Part shown: positions 579 to 37,776 of the stretch, piece by piece | How positions within the stretch are numbered: position 1 is the first letter of the stretch | Layout of the letters: the number at the start of each line of letters is the position of its first letter | Origin: a virus | IMG/VR virus record: IMGVR_UViG_3300024505_000379 | Coordinates: 1-46,585 of that record | Length of the DNA stretch: 46,585 bases | Reading direction: 5' to 3' (one strand) | Notes under the pieces: generated by a model | Databases searched by the model: none | What the model was told of the DNA's origin: nothing | Seen by the model: the letters and a program-made list of their open reading frames with translations, nothing else | Position numbers and translations under genes: made by a program

Positions 579-1412
579 TTATTGAACGGTGGATTCGACG
601 ATCTTTCGGTACTGAGTCCAGCCCCGGAAGTTGCCCGACCACAGGTCTTGTCCGTCTTTGCCCATCGGCGTGGCCTGGTGCTCGATCGGGGATGCATGAA
701 GCGGTACGCTCCCGACCAGCCGGTCGTACAGGGCGATGTCCTTTTCGATGCTCGGTGTCTGACCGTCATGTGTGAGGTAGGACACGCGAGCGCAGCGGGC
801 TGCTGAAATTTTAAGCAACAGCTCCACGTTGCCGAAGTTCTCCAGTCGCTCCTGACGGGTGACGTACGGTAGATGCCAGTCGTCCTCGCGCAGTGTGTTG
901 GGCTTGCTCTGCTCGAAGGCGTGACGCATCACGAGGGCCAGGGCGTGAATCTCCGGCTGAGCATCCGGATGGGCGCGCAGATCGAAGAAGTTCAGCCACT
1001 CGGTCGCCGTGACGATGACGTGCATGTACTGGAACGGCTCCAGCAGGCGGTTGGCCACCTGCTTGTGGACGCCCAGCGTGTTCATGATGTTGGCGCAGTC
1101 GGCAGCACGCTCGGCAGCCAGCTTCCACTGGCGAATCGCCTGAGCACGCTCGTCGCCCTGCAGCTCCTCGTTCGCCTGCATCCCTGGCTGGTTCTTGCCC
1201 CAGTGGATCGGCATGGCGGGATCGGTGCGAACCTGCTCGATGACCTTGGCCACCGGAATGGCGCGGCTCGAGCTGGCGTTGCGTGAAAAGACCCGATGGG
1301 TCATGAACTCGGCATGGATGAAGCGAGGGTACTGAAGCTGCAGGGTAGTCAGCCGTACGCCGTTGCTTTCAGCGACCGAGTCCTCGATGACTTTGGCAGT
1401 GATGATGGTCAT
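579..1412 (-). CDS. thyX: flavin-dependent thymidylate synthase
   Basis: The 277-residue protein should methylate dUMP to dTMP using FAD, NADPH and methylene-tetrahydrofolate. The ThyX signature region reads THRVFSRNASSSRAIP near residues 36-51. The usual RHR triad is THR here, a form I recall in phage ThyX proteins. The C-terminal half contains RCARVSYLTHDG and SPIEHQATP, also typical of the family. The chosen start ATG 1412 overlaps the stop of the small gene upstream (ACATGACC), which implies translational coupling. It belongs to the dNTP-supply set with the ribonucleotide reductase at 3903 and the guanylate kinase at 27614. Confidence 0.93.
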   Translation of the reverse strand: MTIITAKVIEDSVAESNGVRLTTLQLQYPRFIHAEFMTHRVFSRNASSSRAIPVAKVIEQVRTDPAMPIHWGKNQPGMQANEELQGDERAQAIRQWKLAAERAADCANIMNTLGVHKQVANRLLEPFQYMHVIVTATEWLNFFDLRAHPDAQPEIHALALVMRHAFEQSKPNTLREDDWHLPYVTRQERLENFGNVELLLKISAARCARVSYLTHDGQTPSIEKDIALYDRLVGSVPLHASPIEHQATPMGKDGQDLWSGNFRGWTQYRKIVESTVQ

Positions 1413-7602: not shown

Positions 7603-8049
7603 TCACCACGAGCCGAAGCCCAAGTCCTTGTACGTCTCGAACCGATCTGCCAGCTTCTGCTCTTCGGCTTTCTTGGCCATCTCCACCTTGATCTCGGACT
7701 GCAGCCGATGCAGGTCGCCCACGTTCTCTCGAATGAAGTCCTTGAACCCATTCAGGTGAGCGAACGCCTGCTGCTCGTCCATTTCCATCTCCACGTAGTC
7801 AGCCACCATGACGGGCTTGAACACGAAGATGATCTTGCCGCGCTTGCCGACGTACGCCGACGTGGGCTGGAAGTCTTCCATGCCCACATGCGCTGCCTTG
7901 CTGTACGCTCCATTGCTCTTGCGTACCGTGAGCGAGGCGGGCGCGGAGAGCATGAACGTCTCCTGAGTGCGCTTCATCGCCTCGGACATTTTCTTGGCCA
8001 ACTCGTCCAGAGCCAGCTCCTCTTCGGTCTTCTTGACTTGTTCCACCAT
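7603..8049 (-). CDS. hypothetical protein ending in GFGSW
   Basis: The start ATG 8049 was chosen over the longer open frame because GGAGGAG lies seven bases upstream, and because the longer version would overlap the promoter region at 8075-8098. The 148-residue product is highly charged, with helical N- and C-terminal thirds (EEELALDELAKKMSEAMKR; EIKVEMAKKAEEQK). Its central part reads KIIFVFKPVMVADYVEMEM. The last residues are LGFGSW. Two unrelated proteins near 30.7 kb also end in GSW. No family is recognised. Confidence 0.7.
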   Translation of the reverse strand: MVEQVKKTEEELALDELAKKMSEAMKRTQETFMLSAPASLTVRKSNGAYSKAAHVGMEDFQPTSAYVGKRGKIIFVFKPVMVADYVEMEMDEQQAFAHLNGFKDFIRENVGDLHRLQSEIKVEMAKKAEEQKLADRFETYKDLGFGSW

Positions 8050-8074
8050 CCTGAACTCCTCCAGCCCGCGGTCT

Positions 8075-8099
8075 TTCAGGGCTGACTTATCTGTAGTAT
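8075..8099 (-). promoter_or_regulatory. promoter with site 6
   Basis: TTCAGGGCTGACTTA (8075-8089) is a one-mismatch family member. On the minus strand TATACT precedes it by seven bases, placing the palindrome over the start of transcription, as at site 2. It would drive the gene starting at 8049 and lies in the 120-bp gap after sbcC. Confidence 0.6.
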
Positions 8100-8170
8100 A
8101 GCCAGGGGTTCGCAACAGGTGCGCGAACTCCTGCGCGGCAGTGTTGCGATCGAACCTGACCGGCTCGTCC

Positions 8171-10117
8171 CTACTTGCAAGTAGCGCCGCTGACTTTTCC
8201 ATAGCCCTTCTCCTTCGTGACCGTGATGACCTCGTCGATCCAGTCCGACAGCGAGTTGTGGCTGATGACGATCACCGTGCCGCGCTCCTTCGCCTTGTCG
8301 TTCAGCACCGTCATCAGGCGCTCCAGACCCGATTCGTCCAGTGCGTGATCGACCTCGTCGGCGATGAAGATGTTGATGGGCTTGGTGGCGCGGGATGCGA
8401 CCATGTCCTGAAGCGCCATCGCACACGCCAGGCGAACCTTGCGCTTCTCGCCGCCTGACAGCCCTTCGAAGGACTCGGCACCCTTGTCGTTCGTGACCTC
8501 GATCTGGAACTTCTCCTTGACCTCGCCCTTCGCGTTCGTGGTCAGGGTGTTCCAGACGGCGTGGATGTTGTCGTCAGCCAGCGCCGACAGGTAGTGGCTC
8601 GTGCGGTCGTTCAGGTACGGCGTGACCGTATCCAGAATGTGCGCCCGTACACCCGCCGGCCCGTACACCGACACCGCATCCTGAAGAATCTCGACCCGAG
8701 CTTCCAGCTCACGCTTCTTCTCGTCAGTTGCCTTGATCTGGCCCTCGAGCTCCTTGAGCGTCTTCTCCATCAGCGCCACGCTCGCGGTATAAGGATTGTC
8801 ATTTTTCAACCAAACGCCGGCCGCCGTTTTGCACTTCTCGACCTCCACCTCGATCGCGGTCTTCTCCTTCTTCAGAACCTCGATCTTCGCCAGCTCGTCT
8901 TGCAGTTCGCGCTGTCGCGCAGCCAGTGCAGACACATCGGTCATCGAGTCTTTGTGGTCACTGGCGAGCTTCTGCGCTTCGTGCAGCGCTTCCTTCGCGC
9001 TCTTGTACTCGTTCGCGCACCGCTTGAGTTCTTCGGTGGCTTTCTCCAGGTCAGCTTCGCGCAGCTTCTTGACCGTCTCCAGGTCGTGTTCGCAATACGC
9101 CTTGCCGCATTCGCCGCAGGGCTGGCCCACCTTGTCGTTCAGTGTGCGGAGCGCCTCGACCGCATCGGTGTGAGCTTGCTTGGCTCGACGAGCGACTGAC
9201 TCGGCGGTGGCGAAGACCTTGTGTGCGTCCAGAATGGCCTTGTCCAGACGCGCCTGCTCGTCTCGTTCGCCCTTGAGCGAGGCGAAGGTCGTGCTGATCT
9301 TGAGCAATTCCTTGCCGCGATCCTTGAGCATTTCAGCGTCGATTTCGCCACCCAGCGCGATGATCTTCGCCTGCAGTGGAATGGTCTTGGCAAGCTCCGC
9401 CTTCGCGTTGGGCTTGCGCTGCGCCTCGAAGTCGGCGTGCTTGGTTGTCTCTTCCGACAGTCGTGTGACGGCGTGCGTGTGCTGCATCGCCTGCGTGGAC
9501 AGCTGAGCGTCGAGCGATGCCAGCTCCTTCTGTGCGGTGTTCAGCTTCTCGCGGGCGATCTGGTGGGCTCGAGCCAGCACCTCGGTGCCTGCAGCCTCCT
9601 CGATCATCAGCTTCAGCTGCTTGTCCGTCATCGCCGGCAGGTCAGGCATCTTCTCCTGACCGGCGTAGACCGCAGCCTGAAACACATCGAGCGAACAGCC
9701 GATCAGCGCGTTGATGACCTCCTGCGTCTCGCGCTCGGTGCCTTTGTGCAGGTCGATCGGAATGCAGGCGGGGTTGGGGTCTTTCTGTTGTACCAGCGTG
9801 GCGTTCTTGTGCGTCGAATCCTTGCGGTGACGAACGATTCGCCACTCGTTCGTGCCGTCCGACAGTCGGACCTCGACCCTGCAGTCCTTCTTGGCGGTCT
9901 TGTTGACGACTGCATCCGTGCTCACGCCTCGTGCGGTGACGCCATACAGGCCCCAGCAGATCGCATCCGCGATGGACGACTTGCCCGCACCGTTGCTGTC
10001 GGCACTGGTGTCGTCCTTGTTGTCGCCCTGAATAAGCAAGAGCCCACGATCGTCCAGCTCGATCTCGGCGTGCTGAAGCGTGAGGAAGTTGTCGATGATG
10101 ACGCGATTGATTTTCAT
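8171..10117 (-). CDS. sbcC: SbcC/Rad50-like (T4 gp46-like) ATPase subunit
   Basis: The 648-residue SMC-like protein should partner the nuclease encoded just upstream to process DNA ends. The Walker A region spans residues 31-48, with the insertion typical of phage versions and ending NGAGKSS. The two coiled-coil arms meet at a zinc hook with CGEC at residues 334-337. The ABC signature is LSGGEKRK, Walker B is IFIADEVD, the D-loop is LDESG, and the switch His is in VISHN. The start ATG 10117 has GGGAGG upstream and overlaps the sbcD stop by ATGA. The length is close to phage gp46 and shorter than bacterial SbcC. Confidence 0.92.
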   Translation of the reverse strand: MKINRVIIDNFLTLQHAEIELDDRGLLLIQGDNKDDTSADSNGAGKSSIADAICWGLYGVTARGVSTDAVVNKTAKKDCRVEVRLSDGTNEWRIVRHRKDSTHKNATLVQQKDPNPACIPIDLHKGTERETQEVINALIGCSLDVFQAAVYAGQEKMPDLPAMTDKQLKLMIEEAAGTEVLARAHQIAREKLNTAQKELASLDAQLSTQAMQHTHAVTRLSEETTKHADFEAQRKPNAKAELAKTIPLQAKIIALGGEIDAEMLKDRGKELLKISTTFASLKGERDEQARLDKAILDAHKVFATAESVARRAKQAHTDAVEALRTLNDKVGQPCGECGKAYCEHDLETVKKLREADLEKATEELKRCANEYKSAKEALHEAQKLASDHKDSMTDVSALAARQRELQDELAKIEVLKKEKTAIEVEVEKCKTAAGVWLKNDNPYTASVALMEKTLKELEGQIKATDEKKRELEARVEILQDAVSVYGPAGVRAHILDTVTPYLNDRTSHYLSALADDNIHAVWNTLTTNAKGEVKEKFQIEVTNDKGAESFEGLSGGEKRKVRLACAMALQDMVASRATKPINIFIADEVDHALDESGLERLMTVLNDKAKERGTVIVISHNSLSDWIDEVITVTKEKGYGKVSGATCK

Positions 10118-16249: not shown

Positions 16250-19200
16250 TCAGGACAGAATGTCGGCAACTTGTGCAAACACTGCGTCCAGAACTTCTTG
16301 CTTGTCGGGGTCGAACCCGATCTGTTGCGCGTTGATGCCGCAGACGATGGTGGCGTCCAGAGTCGGATCGTAGATCGCCTTACCGACCATCTCCGACGCA
16401 CCGCCCTTCAACCCAGGCACGAACCGCTTGATAGTCGCCGAGCCGAGCGCGACGATGACGGCGGGCTTGATGAGCTCCAGCTCGCGGTCGAGGAACTTGC
16501 TGCAGCCGTTGATCTGAGCGTTCGAGAGGAACTTGTCGCTCTTCTTGGCCTTCACCAGTGTCGTGTAGTAGCCGTCGGCGACCGACAGCCCTGCCTTGAG
16601 AATCGACTCCTTGACGTAGAGAGCCGCATCGCCCTCCAGCAGCTTGTCTTTCTTCTCCTCTTGCCAGGTCGGGCAGTCGGACACGACCATGAACTTGACG
16701 GTGGACTTGGCGCGAACGGTCGGGTGCGGGCTTTCTTTCAGGTCGCAGCCATCGCACTTCTTGTAGTCCTGAATCAGATGAATCACCTTCGCCCGAAGGA
16801 ACTTGTCCGCGAGGTCGGTGGTTCTGTCGGCCTTGACGGCGTCGATGACGAGCCCAGGCATCAGCTCCATCTGATCCTTGCGGCGGCTGAAGTGCTTGGC
16901 AGACGGTGCGGACGGGTCGATGAGCGCGAACGCACCAACCTTCTCCAGATTCTCGACGACCCGAGCATTCACCTTCGAGCCAGGTTGACTTGCGGCCATC
17001 ATGAACTCCTCCTTGGTGGAGAAGTGACCCTTGACAGCGGCGGTGTCGTCCTCGCCCCAAACCTCCTCGGTCGTGCCATCGCGCTTCTTCTTGATCTTGA
17101 TGACCTTCCAGCCACGGTTGCGCTCACGCAGCTCCACGATCCGCTGGGCGGTGTTCTCGGAGATGCCCTTGACCGACGAGAAGGGCGCCAGGATCGTCTT
17201 GTCGTTCGGAATGGTGTAGCGATGCGTGGACGTGTTGATGTCAGGCGGGAAGACCTCGATGCCGGCCTCTCGCGCATCCTTGACCAGACCGGGGAGCTTC
17301 TCCTCATCCACGATCGACATGCAGGCGGCGAAGTATTCGGCGGGGTAATGCACTCGCAGCCACATCGTCCAGTAGCTGATGATGGAGTATTCGACGGCGT
17401 GCGAACGGTTGAAACCGTAGCCCGCGAATGCCTCGATCTTGTCGAAGATTGCTCCTGCGGTGCGGTCATCCAGTGAAGACGTGGCTTTGCAGCCCTCGAC
17501 CCACTTCTCGCGCATCTCCGCCATCTTGTCTTTGTCTTTCTTGCCCATCGCTTTTCGCAGATGGTCGGCTTCCGCTCTGGTGAAGCCCGCCAGATCGACG
17601 GCGACTTGCATGACCTGTTCCTGATAGACGATCACGCCGAAGGTTGCCTCGAGGGCCGCCTTCATGTTCGGGTGGTCGTAGCTCGGCTCTCTGATGCCTT
17701 GCTTGATGGCCACGTAGTCATCGAGCAGGCCCGAGTCCATCGGACCCGGTCGGTACAGGGCGGTTGCGGCAGTAATGTCCTCGAAGGTCAACTGCCCGCC
17801 CACCGCCAGGTCACGAAGGAGCTTTCGCATCCCTGGCGACTCGAACTGGAAGACGCCGGTTGTCTCGCCCTTACCGAAGGCGTCCATGACCTTGCTCTCC
17901 TCGAAGGGCAGCTTCAGGTAATCGACCTCGGTGCCATGCCTGTCCTTGATGTAGCCCTTCGCAATCTCCAGCACATCGAGCGTGGACAGGCCCAGAATAT
18001 CCATCTTGACCAGGCCCCAGTCTTCGACGATCCGCTTGTCCCAGTTGACGACCGGCGCATCCGACCGCGTCTCGATCACGGCGCGGTTGACCAGCGGCTC
18101 GCCAGCAACGACAACACCGGCTGCGTGACGCCCGAAGGCACGCATCGCACCTTCGAGATTCAGGGCGTGCTTCCAGATTTCAGCGTGCTCGTCCTTGAAC
18201 TTGTCGATCTCGGGCACCGCCTTCGCTGCTTCGGTCAACGTGAACGACTGACCATGCTCTTTAGGCACGAGCTTGGTAGCGGTCAGTTCAATGCCATTGA
18301 GACCGTACATGCGACCAGTGTCACGAAGCGCACTGGCGCTCGCAAGCGTCGAATAATTGCTGATGCCTGCGACACGGTCAGCACCGTACTTGGCGGTCAG
18401 GTACTCGATCACCAGATGACGCTTGGACGACATGAAGTCCAGGTCAGCGTCAGGCAAGTCGAGACGTTCGGGGTTGATGAAACGCTCGAAGAGGAGGTTG
18501 AACCGAATCGGGTCCACGTCCGTGATGCCGATCAGGTACGCAACGAGCGAGCCGCCGACAGAACCGCGACCGGGGCCAACGATGATGCCGTTGTTCTTCG
18601 CCCAGACGACGAGGTCTTCCACCAGAAGGAAGTAGCCCGCGAAGCCCATCTTCTTGAGAACGGCCATTTCATACGCAAGGCGGTCCTGGTAGACCTTCAT
18701 TTCGGCCGGTGTGGGCCTGTGCCCAAGCACCTCGTCGGAGAAGCGACGCCTCCAGCCCTCGACGCACTTCTTACCCAGGGCCACGAACTCGTTGTCGGCC
18801 ATCTTGGGCAGCGACACCGGCTGCTTCTTCCATTCGTAGGTGCATCGTCCGACCAACTGGTCGATGTTGGCCAGGCCCTCGACCCACAGCTGCGGTGACG
18901 CCACGCCATTGTAGGTGTTGACCCGCCCTGCCGCCTTCTTGACCCGCTCGACAAGGTGAGTGGGCTCGTGAATGAAGAAGTCCTTCACGTACTGCACGGA
19001 CCGATACGCCACGTCCATCTTGGTGTTCGTGGTGATGCACTTGAGCACCTCCAGCGAATCTGCTGCGTCCGCGTTGCGGTAGAAGGTCGGATACGTGACC
19101 AGGGGTGGCATCGCCAGGTGACGAGCCGCCTCCAGCGCCTTGCTGTTCAGCGTGTCGAAGAGCGGCGTGTTGATCGGCGTGAGCTCCGAGTAGACGCCTT

Positions 19201-19702
19201 TGACGCCGAAGCGGTCCTGCAGCGCCTTGATGATTTCGTCGTGGTTCGGCAGGTGGTACAGGTTGAACAGGTCGCCAGTCGAGACGACCACATCCTCGAG
19301 CTCCAGCACTTCCTTGAGCCCTACCCTGGCGTGGTAGTAGAAGTAGTCCTCGCTGTACGCTTTGGACAGCAGTTTGAGCAGCGAAGTGATGCCTTTGTCA
19401 GCCGTGACATACACCTTCAGCATGAACATGGGGTTCGGCTTTTCGCGCTCGCCCGATGCCTTGCTCGGCTTGCGGTAGGTCGGGTCTTCGACGACACGGA
19501 TTCGGCAACCGATCACGGGCTTGATGCCCGCCTTCTTCGCTCGATTGATGAAGTCCACCATGCCGTGCAGCGACATGGTATCCATCAAGGTGACGGACTC
19601 GTAGCCCTTCTCCTTCGCATCAGCCACCAGATGCTCGATCTGGAGCATCGACTCGCTGATGGAGAAATCTGACCTCGCGGCCAGCATGTGATTCAAATTC
19701 AT
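16250..19702 (-). CDS. dnaE: DNA polymerase III alpha-like replicase fused to a uracil-DNA-glycosylase-like domain
   Basis: The 1150-residue C-family polymerase has a degenerate PHP domain (residues 1-250). The metal-binding HxHxH of active PHP domains is absent (NHMLAARSDFS). The core carries GPGRGSVGGSLVAYL near 376 and PDADLDF at 417-423, with catalytic Asp419 and Asp421. Asp568 sits in KMDILGL. A helix-hairpin-helix region around GYGFNRSHAVEYS follows. From residue 983 (bases 16756-16250) the chain matches the UDG superfamily, with CDGCDL, SILKAGL, NGCSKFLDRELELIKPAV and VALGSATIKRF. This replaces the OB and tau-binding parts of host DnaE. No proofreading subunit is seen in the window. 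Confidence 0.93.
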   Translation of the reverse strand: MNLNHMLAARSDFSISESMLQIEHLVADAKEKGYESVTLMDTMSLHGMVDFINRAKKAGIKPVIGCRIRVVEDPTYRKPSKASGEREKPNPMFMLKVYVTADKGITSLLKLLSKAYSEDYFYYHARVGLKEVLELEDVVVSTGDLFNLYHLPNHDEIIKALQDRFGVKGVYSELTPINTPLFDTLNSKALEAARHLAMPPLVTYPTFYRNADAADSLEVLKCITTNTKMDVAYRSVQYVKDFFIHEPTHLVERVKKAAGRVNTYNGVASPQLWVEGLANIDQLVGRCTYEWKKQPVSLPKMADNEFVALGKKCVEGWRRRFSDEVLGHRPTPAEMKVYQDRLAYEMAVLKKMGFAGYFLLVEDLVVWAKNNGIIVGPGRGSVGGSLVAYLIGITDVDPIRFNLLFERFINPERLDLPDADLDFMSSKRHLVIEYLTAKYGADRVAGISNYSTLASASALRDTGRMYGLNGIELTATKLVPKEHGQSFTLTEAAKAVPEIDKFKDEHAEIWKHALNLEGAMRAFGRHAAGVVVAGEPLVNRAVIETRSDAPVVNWDKRIVEDWGLVKMDILGLSTLDVLEIAKGYIKDRHGTEVDYLKLPFEESKVMDAFGKGETTGVFQFESPGMRKLLRDLAVGGQLTFEDITAATALYRPGPMDSGLLDDYVAIKQGIREPSYDHPNMKAALEATFGVIVYQEQVMQVAVDLAGFTRAEADHLRKAMGKKDKDKMAEMREKWVEGCKATSSLDDRTAGAIFDKIEAFAGYGFNRSHAVEYSIISYWTMWLRVHYPAEYFAACMSIVDEEKLPGLVKDAREAGIEVFPPDINTSTHRYTIPNDKTILAPFSSVKGISENTAQRIVELRERNRGWKVIKIKKKRDGTTEEVWGEDDTAAVKGHFSTKEEFMMAASQPGSKVNARVVENLEKVGAFALIDPSAPSAKHFSRRKDQMELMPGLVIDAVKADRTTDLADKFLRAKVIHLIQDYKKCDGCDLKESPHPTVRAKSTVKFMVVSDCPTWQEEKKDKLLEGDAALYVKESILKAGLSVADGYYTTLVKAKKSDKFLSNAQINGCSKFLDRELELIKPAVIVALGSATIKRFVPGLKGGASEMVGKAIYDPTLDATIVCGINAQQIGFDPDKQEVLDAVFAQVADILS

Positions 19703-36062: not shown

Positions 36063-37388
36063 TCAGCGAATTCTTGGTGGGATCGCTGCATCGACCTCGT
36101 GCGGCTCACGGTGATACCACTTGCCGCCCGCCACTGCGAAGTCGGTGACGGAGATGTAGTCGAACGCAGTGGAGCGCGTGTGCGTGTCTACGTTGATGAG
36201 CGCGAAGCCGTTGTGCCAACGCTCGCCTTCGCAGTATGAAGCCGACCGCCTGTGACCTGCGCCGAGTTGGTGCCACTCGTATGCGCCGTAGACGGGATTG
36301 AACTCGCTCCACACCTGATGCCGATGGTGGTGCCCGTTAATGCCAGGCAAGCCCATCGAGCGAGCGTGCGGGAAGTGATGGCACAGCACCGTGTCGAAGT
36401 AGACCTTGTAGTTGCTGGCAAGCTCCTTCTCGAAGTCGCGCTTAGTAAATGCAGCCAGGTCAGCTTTGGCGATGTAGTTGATCTCGAACTGCTCAAGGCC
36501 CAAGAGCTTTGCGACCGTGAAGCCATGCAGGTCTGAGAGCACTGCGCGCAGCGCCGGCGTGGCATCCGCCAGCTGACGCAGCAGTCGCGCCTCATGGTTG
36601 CCTTCGATGAAGTCGATCTGGGCATCGGGGCACACGTCACGCAGCGGCGCAAGGATGTGCTCATGCGCGAACTTGATGCGACCCACCACATCCCACTCAC
36701 GCGGATCGACGCCGTACTTGCCGAACTCGGGCAGGTCAAATATGTCGCCGGCCAGGACGATCACGTCAGGCTGGACACGCTCGGCGGTGTCGATCAGCAC
36801 TCGCAGGTAGAACGGGTCGATCTCGATGTCGTGGAGGTCCGAGCAGGCCAGGATCGTCTTGAAGCGGTTCTGGTTGTCGCGGATGTACTTGTCCGCCCAG
36901 TCGGCTCGTTCGATGTTCATGGCGCGGTAGTGATCCACCGACGCATGCTTGGCGATTGCACGCTCGTGGGCGTGCTGCTGACGGGAGAGCTTGATGCCGG
37001 CCTGGCGCTTGAACTCTTCGAAGGTGCCGAAGTAGCGGTTCCAGGTGGACTCGGAGATGGCGCTGTGGTTGCGGAAGTAGTTGCGGGTGACGACCTTCTC
37101 GGGGTCGATCTCGGCAATGCGTCGCAGTTCCGCGACACACTCTTCCGGACCCCAGTGCTCCATGAATTTGGAGCTGTCCTCGCTCATTGGGACATCGCCC
37201 GTTGGGGCGCGGTTCACGAGCTTGGGGCCGGCGGGGTTGTTCTTGAAGGTTGATCGAATGAAGCCCGCCTTGTTGCGGACCGTCTTGATTGAGATGCCCA
37301 GAACCTTGGCCACGTCGGCGATGGTTGGGTATTTGTCCAGGTCGTTGTAGACCTCGATGAACTGGTCAATATCGCTTGTTGCGGACAT
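36063..37388 (-). CDS. calcineurin-like phosphoesterase with N-terminal HTH region
   Basis: The 441-residue protein starts at ATG 37388 with AAGGAG eight bases upstream. The N-terminal third holds an HTH-like segment (TIADVAKVLGISIKTVRNKA, residues 22-41) and a second possible DNA-binding module (SESTWNRYFGTFEEFKRQAG, near 130). The C-terminal part is a metallophosphoesterase with CSDLHDIE, LAGDIFDLPEF, IEGNHEARL, CHHFPHARS and GHHHRHQ, which bind two metals. Fusion of a DNA-binding region to this nuclease or phosphatase fold suggests action on DNA. It is distinct from the SbcD protein at 10-11 kb. Confidence 0.85.
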   Translation of the reverse strand: MSATSDIDQFIEVYNDLDKYPTIADVAKVLGISIKTVRNKAGFIRSTFKNNPAGPKLVNRAPTGDVPMSEDSSKFMEHWGPEECVAELRRIAEIDPEKVVTRNYFRNHSAISESTWNRYFGTFEEFKRQAGIKLSRQQHAHERAIAKHASVDHYRAMNIERADWADKYIRDNQNRFKTILACSDLHDIEIDPFYLRVLIDTAERVQPDVIVLAGDIFDLPEFGKYGVDPREWDVVGRIKFAHEHILAPLRDVCPDAQIDFIEGNHEARLLRQLADATPALRAVLSDLHGFTVAKLLGLEQFEINYIAKADLAAFTKRDFEKELASNYKVYFDTVLCHHFPHARSMGLPGINGHHHRHQVWSEFNPVYGAYEWHQLGAGHRRSASYCEGERWHNGFALINVDTHTRSTAFDYISVTDFAVAGGKWYHREPHEVDAAIPPRIR

Positions 37389-37452
37389 GCGCCCTACTCC
37401 TTGAGGGCTGCCGCCCTTGAACATGGGCGACTGGGTCGCCCGACACTGCGAC

Positions 37453-37776
37453 TCAGCTTTGTGCTGCTGCAACGATTTTGATGAAGTGCCACAAGCCGTA
37501 GAGCACTCCCGCCCCGATCATGGCCCAGGCCACCTGGATGGCCTTGATCGTGACCTTGATCGTTGTCTGCTGTTTGACCTGCTCCATCTCGAGTGCCGAC
37601 AGGCGCTCGCTCTGCTTCTCGATCTTCTCGAGGGTGCGGAGCATGGTGTTGTGCATCGCCTGATGCCGCTCTTCGAGGATCGCGATCTTGCTGATGGCGT
37701 CCGCCATCTTCGACATGCTTGACTTCATGTCTGCCAGATCGCTTTGAATGACACTGAGAGTAGTAGAGTCCGACAT
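37453..37776 (-). CDS. coiled-coil membrane-anchored protein
   Basis: The 107-residue protein (ATG 37776) has a long coiled coil (residues 5-70: IQSDLADMKSSMSKMADAIS, KIAILEERHQ, LEKIEKQSERLSALE). One membrane segment follows near residues 83-104 (AWAMIGAGVLYGLWHFIKIV). This resembles XhlA-type holin-associated proteins, which work with holins and lysins. A longer version starting at 37833, inside site 22, is possible, but a TAGAAT -10-like box near 37815 would then lie inside the gene. It lies at the left end of the structural and lysis region. Confidence 0.65.
   Translation of the reverse strand: MSDSTTLSVIQSDLADMKSSMSKMADAISKIAILEERHQAMHNTMLRTLEKIEKQSERLSALEMEQVKQQTTIKVTIKAIQVAWAMIGAGVLYGLWHFIKIVAAAQS

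Follow-up and report, generated by a model that had tools for sequence, protein, structure and literature searches.

A degenerate family 4 uracil-DNA glycosylase fold at the C-terminus of a phage DnaE-type replicase

Fusion of a uracil-DNA glycosylase (UDG) domain to a replicative polymerase of the C family has been reported previously. Timinskas et al. (2014, NAR 42:1393; PMC3919608) described DnaEX proteins in which an archaeal-type UDG domain (PF03167) replaces the OB and CTD domains, and in their account certain strains of Y. pestis and S. enterica carry DnaE-UDG as an extra polymerase; hence the fusion architecture itself is not new. We infer that these published Yersinia and Salmonella cases are SSU5-type elements. 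The gene examined here, located in a 46,585-nucleotide stretch of viral DNA (IMG/VR record IMGVR_UViG_3300024505_000379; hereafter the window), has the same architecture as DnaEX, whereas the loss of active-site and Fe-S residues, the phage-wide spread of the fusion and the clade with an intact UDG domain are not discussed in that account of DnaEX (PMC3919608). UDG domains also occur in family A polymerases, such as gp205 of Pseudomonas phage PaBG, in which the domain is N-terminal (PMC7412058). In the family A UDG polymerases of Lysinibacillus LysYB1, Pseudomonas STP12 and Yersinia P744, the Glu of UDG motif 1 is also replaced by Asp, as in the window; however, these proteins retain both the HP motif and their Fe-S cysteines, and their UDG domain is N-terminal rather than C-terminal. 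In Yersinia phage P744, the UDG-polymerase gene has as neighbors the genes for dUTPase and thymidylate synthase and one carrying the annotation pyrimidine hmase synthase. A weak match to the window UDG domain, in both sequence and fold, was also observed for PDB entry 9qhs (2026; phiLo family A polymerase, modified template), which may hint structurally at the function of such domains. Stand-alone family 4 UDGs (UDG4; TM0511, 1vk2/1l9g; T. thermophilus, 1ui0; S. tokodaii, 4zbx) share the fold, the CxxC and the motif order with the window domain, which, unlike them, is fused to DnaE and lacks the catalytic Glu and His, the two residues (Phe and Asn) that contact uracil, and one of the Fe-S cysteines. 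In vaccinia virus, the UDG D4 is part of the polymerase processivity factor and has a replication role independent of glycosylase activity, which makes it a functional precedent, but it differs from the window domain in being a family 1 UDG, a separate subunit and catalytically competent.

The window dnaE (Table 1) is preceded by an AGGAG ribosome-binding site ahead of its ATG and ends with a stop codon at 16250-16252. Its product contains the features that define a C-family polymerase (DnaE), namely the Pol3 core, fingers, PHP domain, helix-hairpin-helix (HhH) region and catalytic Asp triad, and the triad (D418/D420/D568) is invariant in a 62-row alignment. By contrast, the metal ligands of the PHP domain are gone in the window family, as the preliminary description of this DNA had stated: aligned ligand columns show ARSDF where HLHxE or HLHxQ is expected and DTMS in place of D/NHG. 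The full-length model (pLDDT 90) matched the DnaE structures 2hpi and 2hnh in Foldseek, and its tail part matched UDG4. Both this model and Pfam indicate that OB is missing and that PF03167 occupies the C-terminus, which agrees with the earlier proposal that a UDG-like domain stands in the place of the OB and tau-binding regions. Judged from its sequence, the window gene encodes the replicative C-family polymerase of the phage itself, in which the polymerase is intact and the PHP and UDG parts are degenerate.

Table 1. Coordinates of the window dnaE, its domains and motifs, and related genes on other contigs
Feature	Residues	Position	Strand	Remark
dnaE-type phage replicase ORF	1150 aa	16250-19702	(-)	single intact ORF; phrog_405
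PHP domain	1-285	18848-19702	(-)	Pfam PHP PF02811; metal ligands lost
Polymerase core and fingers	286-745	17468-18847	(-)	Pfam PF07733, PF17657; catalytic residues intact
Helix-hairpin-helix region	~814-925	16928-17263	(-)	Pfam HHH_6 (PF14579) at 814-866
QMELM	944-948	16859-16873	(-)	candidate beta-clamp-binding motif
UDG4-fold domain (predicted)	961-1150	16253-16822	(-)	catalytically degenerate; stands in for OB and CTD
CDGC	983-986	16745-16756	(-)	first two Fe-S Cys (983, 986) kept
Altered motif 1, VSDCPTWQEE	1007-1016	16655-16684	(-)	GEGPG in UDG4; Glu to Asp1009
Altered motif 2, CGINAQQ		16322-16342	(-)	HPxx in UDG4; His to Asn1124
NGCSKFLDRELELIKPAV	1065-1082			in dnaE product
VALGSATIKRF	1084-1094			in dnaE product
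Intact-UDG dnaE genes		L093:1143-4403, L243:4995-8417, L244:4998-8360, L246:4905-9536
Family A-type polymerases with N-terminal UDG4-like domain		L048:4007-6682, L050:2974-5580, L049:3850-6415

Several lines of evidence assign the C-terminal part of the window protein to UDG4. The Pfam UDG model PF03167 matched it with an E-value of 5e-6, exceeding the curated cut-off, and a phmmer search with the single window sequence retrieved TM0511 (1vk2, E 1.8e-9). When a 58-row family profile was used, the solved S. tokodaii UDG4 (4zbx) was matched with an E-value of 2e-29, followed by other UDG4s and UdgX, whereas the family 5 UDG 2d3y was much weaker in the same search (E 1.8e-4). In the AlphaFold2 model of the domain (pLDDT 93.8, pTM 0.90), the top six Foldseek matches were all UDG4 (1l9g, E 2e-13, TM 0.78/0.82). 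The domain begins about 20 residues before Cys983, since a helix (967-981) precedes the CxxC in both the full-length and the domain models. Profiles and models together identify the last ~190 residues of the window DnaE as a predicted family 4 UDG fold, with similarity well beyond chance. The preliminary description had recognized a UDG-like region of family 4/5 at residues 983-1150 (16253-16756 on the minus strand) fused to DnaE and had suggested structure prediction as a check on it; the fusion, the quoted motifs and the fold were all recovered and no unrelated fold appeared, but family 5 is a worse match than family 4.

To survey the functional residues, 166 distinct DnaE-fused domains were aligned with UDG4 and UdgX controls. 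The window domain departs from UDG4 at motif 1 (SDCPT instead of the Glu-containing GEGPG), at motif 2 (NAQQ instead of HPxx) and in its Fe-S set, in which Cys983, Cys986 and Cys1067 (the fourth ligand) are present and the third position is Ala1052. The active-site alteration and the incomplete Fe-S set had both been noted before, although the fourth Cys, then considered unclear, is present and it is the third that is missing. The motif-1 Glu is replaced by Asp in 160 of the 166 domains (GEGPG to xDxPx), a true Glu being found within this alignment only in L093 and L097. In the window family, the PFVG Phe and the TNxVKC Asn have mostly given way to other residues. Three rows each keep the third Fe-S Cys (L089, L093 and L097) and the motif-2 His (L073, L093 and L097), the latter being Asn, Ser, Ala or similar elsewhere, so that L073 (His) and L089 (third Cys) are the sole exceptions outside the intact-UDG clade. 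The first, second and fourth cysteines are kept in the window, nickie and Acinetobacter types and none in the SSU5 and Rhizobium types; L248 and L089 keep four Cys and have lost the catalytic residues. Such stepwise loss of Fe-S ligands is the pattern expected if the fold was kept for something other than catalysis. Because of these residue losses, uracil excision by a window-type domain appears very unlikely. However, some UDG families function without the family 4 Glu, so that these losses do not prove the domain inactive.

The degenerate domain nevertheless remains conserved at the level of the PHP domain and open despite its residue losses. Mean pairwise identity was 0.40 for the UDG domain versus 0.37 for PHP overall, and 0.71 versus 0.59 in the close clade, and D1009, T1047, K1051, K1054, E1074, P1080, G1087 and G1107 are invariant in the UDG domain family. 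A changed activity or ligand could explain why the old pocket has invariant residues at Asp1009 and Lys1051. The mean net charge is -2.4 in the degenerate family and 0 in the window; such a neutral to slightly acidic domain argues against strong non-specific DNA binding but not against docking, and a protein or structural contact is therefore favored over a strong grip on DNA.

A wider search of IMG/VR reached a separate clade of metagenomic phage DnaEs with an intact-looking C-terminal UDG4 in L093, L243, L244 and L246, as well as L251, which has GEIPS. The intact clade keeps GE(A/G)PG, FVG or FIG, the Asn, four Cys, and HPSAVL or HPAAVL; the UDG domain of L093 matched PF03167 with an E-value of 7.6e-30 and 4zbx with 5e-26. 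The PHP ligands HLHxH and D/NHG are kept in L093, L243 and L244, the three members aligned. As far as the literature surveyed shows, such a degenerate-to-intact UDG4 series appears undescribed, and we found no cultured phage of the intact-UDG clade. In L248 and L251, an OB-like stretch was recognized by eye ahead of the UDG domain, an indication that one DnaE can contain both UDG and OB. By eye, the DNA beside dnaE in L093 resembles genes for a DnaN clamp and a DnaX-type ATPase, and the 84-kb L243 and 83-kb L244 contigs contain a PF00929 exonuclease and weak DnaN matches. Inspection by eye also revealed an intein-like insert in the UDG domain of L246 (~8040-9210), at which the +1 residue is the third Fe-S Cys; another intein-like insert is located in the polymerase core of L251. 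In L249 (4982-8564), another member of the intact clade, the DnaE stops before the UDG domain, a ThyX-like ORF was seen by eye at ~9102, and no UDG was found elsewhere on the L249 stretch.

The fused frame is open in phages and phage-plasmids of Rhizobium, Pseudomonas, Stenotrophomonas, Salmonella, E. coli and Klebsiella, and also in Acinetobacter plasmids and dozens of IMG/VR contigs. The DnaE of Salmonella phage SSU5 is an end-to-end homologue of the window gene with the same architecture (36.6% identity). Two interrupted copies were observed. In an Acinetobacter plasmid (L045:3314-5151), a NUMOD4-type gene adjoins the split in dnaE, which leaves the C-terminal part with an annotation of its own as a uracil-DNA glycosylase family protein; the gene of Klebsiella phage p4727 is broken by a 710-base gap (L005:5364-6074); no Rfam match to intron families was found in these two copies. 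A single origin of all UDG-DnaE fusions was considered. In a quick tree of 47 rows, the UDG-bearing DnaEs grouped together, although the group also took in three rows lacking UDG (SH-aLRT 93). In a careful 34-row tree, a single exclusive group of UDG-bearing DnaEs was rejected by the AU test (p 0.007), and L089 moved to the bacterial-type side, with long branches in play.

We also examined possible replisome partners. Besides dnaE, the replication and repair genes of the window include those for a gp32-like SSB, 5'-3' exonuclease, UvsX/RecA, SbcCD-like proteins, DNA ligase, primase and DnaB-like helicase, and further genes encode a class II-type RNR, integrase and CobS/CobT-like proteins. An ORF at 36063-37472 combines a calcineurin-like phosphoesterase with a weak match to an HNH-associated repeat and is possibly a fused or interrupted gene. 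No PF00929 exonuclease was found in the 46.6-kb window record, consistent with the earlier statement that no proofreading exonuclease is visible. However, this means little because the window is a fragment of a genome type of ~105-120 kb, in which all 20 near-complete relatives carry a PF00929 (DnaQ-family) exonuclease gene separate from dnaE; hence a lack of proofreading was rejected for the genome type. The one such exonuclease tested, from an Acinetobacter relative, had E. coli epsilon (1j53, E 2.5e-15) as its best match. Neither a DnaN clamp nor a second UDG was found in the same 20 near-complete relatives. Since just 5 of the 21 relatives or fragments examined yielded a dUTPase gene, and these are scattered over types, the uracil-related context is not consistent. 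The candidate clamp motif QMELM sits between the HhH region and the UDG domain, presumably in the place of the clamp-binding motif QADMF of E. coli alpha, and is conserved as Q-x-x-L-[MLI] (Q944 and L947 each in 156 of the 161 relatives with residues there). In the full-length model it partly coincides with a helix end, whereas clamp motifs are usually extended, a point against this assignment.

Considering these observations, we think it probable that the inactivated UDG4 fold has been kept as a non-catalytic structural or docking module replacing OB and CTD. As such, it would provide a contact surface for the template strand or for other components of the phage replisome. Because the relatives encode no DnaN, we propose that the candidate QMELM may hold the polymerase on the beta clamp of the host, and proofreading would be supplied by the separate phage epsilon-like exonuclease, presumably paired with the alpha-like polymerase. 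The decay of residues and the lack of any positive sign of a partner would also fit a purely structural remnant, tolerated as a C-terminal cap after the loss of OB and CTD; we regard this as unlikely, if not negligibly so, considering that the domain is kept clade-wide, has its own invariant residues and is more conserved than PHP in the close clade. An artefact, whether by frameshift, gene joining, assembly error or chance similarity, has practically no probability. The frameshifted copy L097 belongs to a different contig and nothing of the kind was seen in the window. The joining of two genes by a frameshift, a concern raised in the preliminary description, was ruled out because phages, phage-plasmids and over 30 independent contigs have the fusion in a single open frame, and chance similarity was excluded by the profile match (E 2e-29) and the fold match.

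The preliminary description had suggested that the domain may sense uracil. As a read-ahead sensor, it would bind template uracil or a non-standard base without cutting and stall or regulate synthesis, much as archaeal PolB does with its N-terminal pocket. The UDG fold does adjoin the polymerase, its old pocket keeps the invariant D1009 and K1051, and 9qhs, a phage family A phiLo polymerase solved "with modified template", has a UDG-like N-terminal region, although it is a weak relative. However, the Phe of PFVG, the Asn of TNxVKC and the His of HPxx, with which UDG4 contacts uracil, are all replaced, and the scattered dUTPase genes supply no consistent context for such a role; uracil sensing is thus unsupported and this reading improbable. 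Similarly speculative, and to be given little chance, is a broader scheme in which phage C-family replicases carry an intact UDG4 in some lineages, for uracil excision by the same chain, and elsewhere, including the window, a template-reading pseudoglycosylase for a non-standard base or phage mark. An active, replication-coupled glycosylase with non-standard catalytic residues could be suggested by the full UDG4 motif set of the related clade (L093, L243, L244 and L246) and by the variation of catalytic residues between UDG families, but it is highly improbable for the window family, which lacks both catalytic motifs, the uracil-contacting residues and the third Fe-S Cys, the SSU5 and Rhizobium types being devoid of all the cysteines.

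These phage replicases, with a repair-enzyme fold in that place, show that the OB/tau-binding end of DnaE is replaceable. The intact-to-degenerate UDG4 series would allow a test of whether the glycosylase first served repair at the fork and later became a scaffold. As SSU5-type members reside on common phage-plasmids of Klebsiella, E. coli and Salmonella, a tractable system therefore exists.
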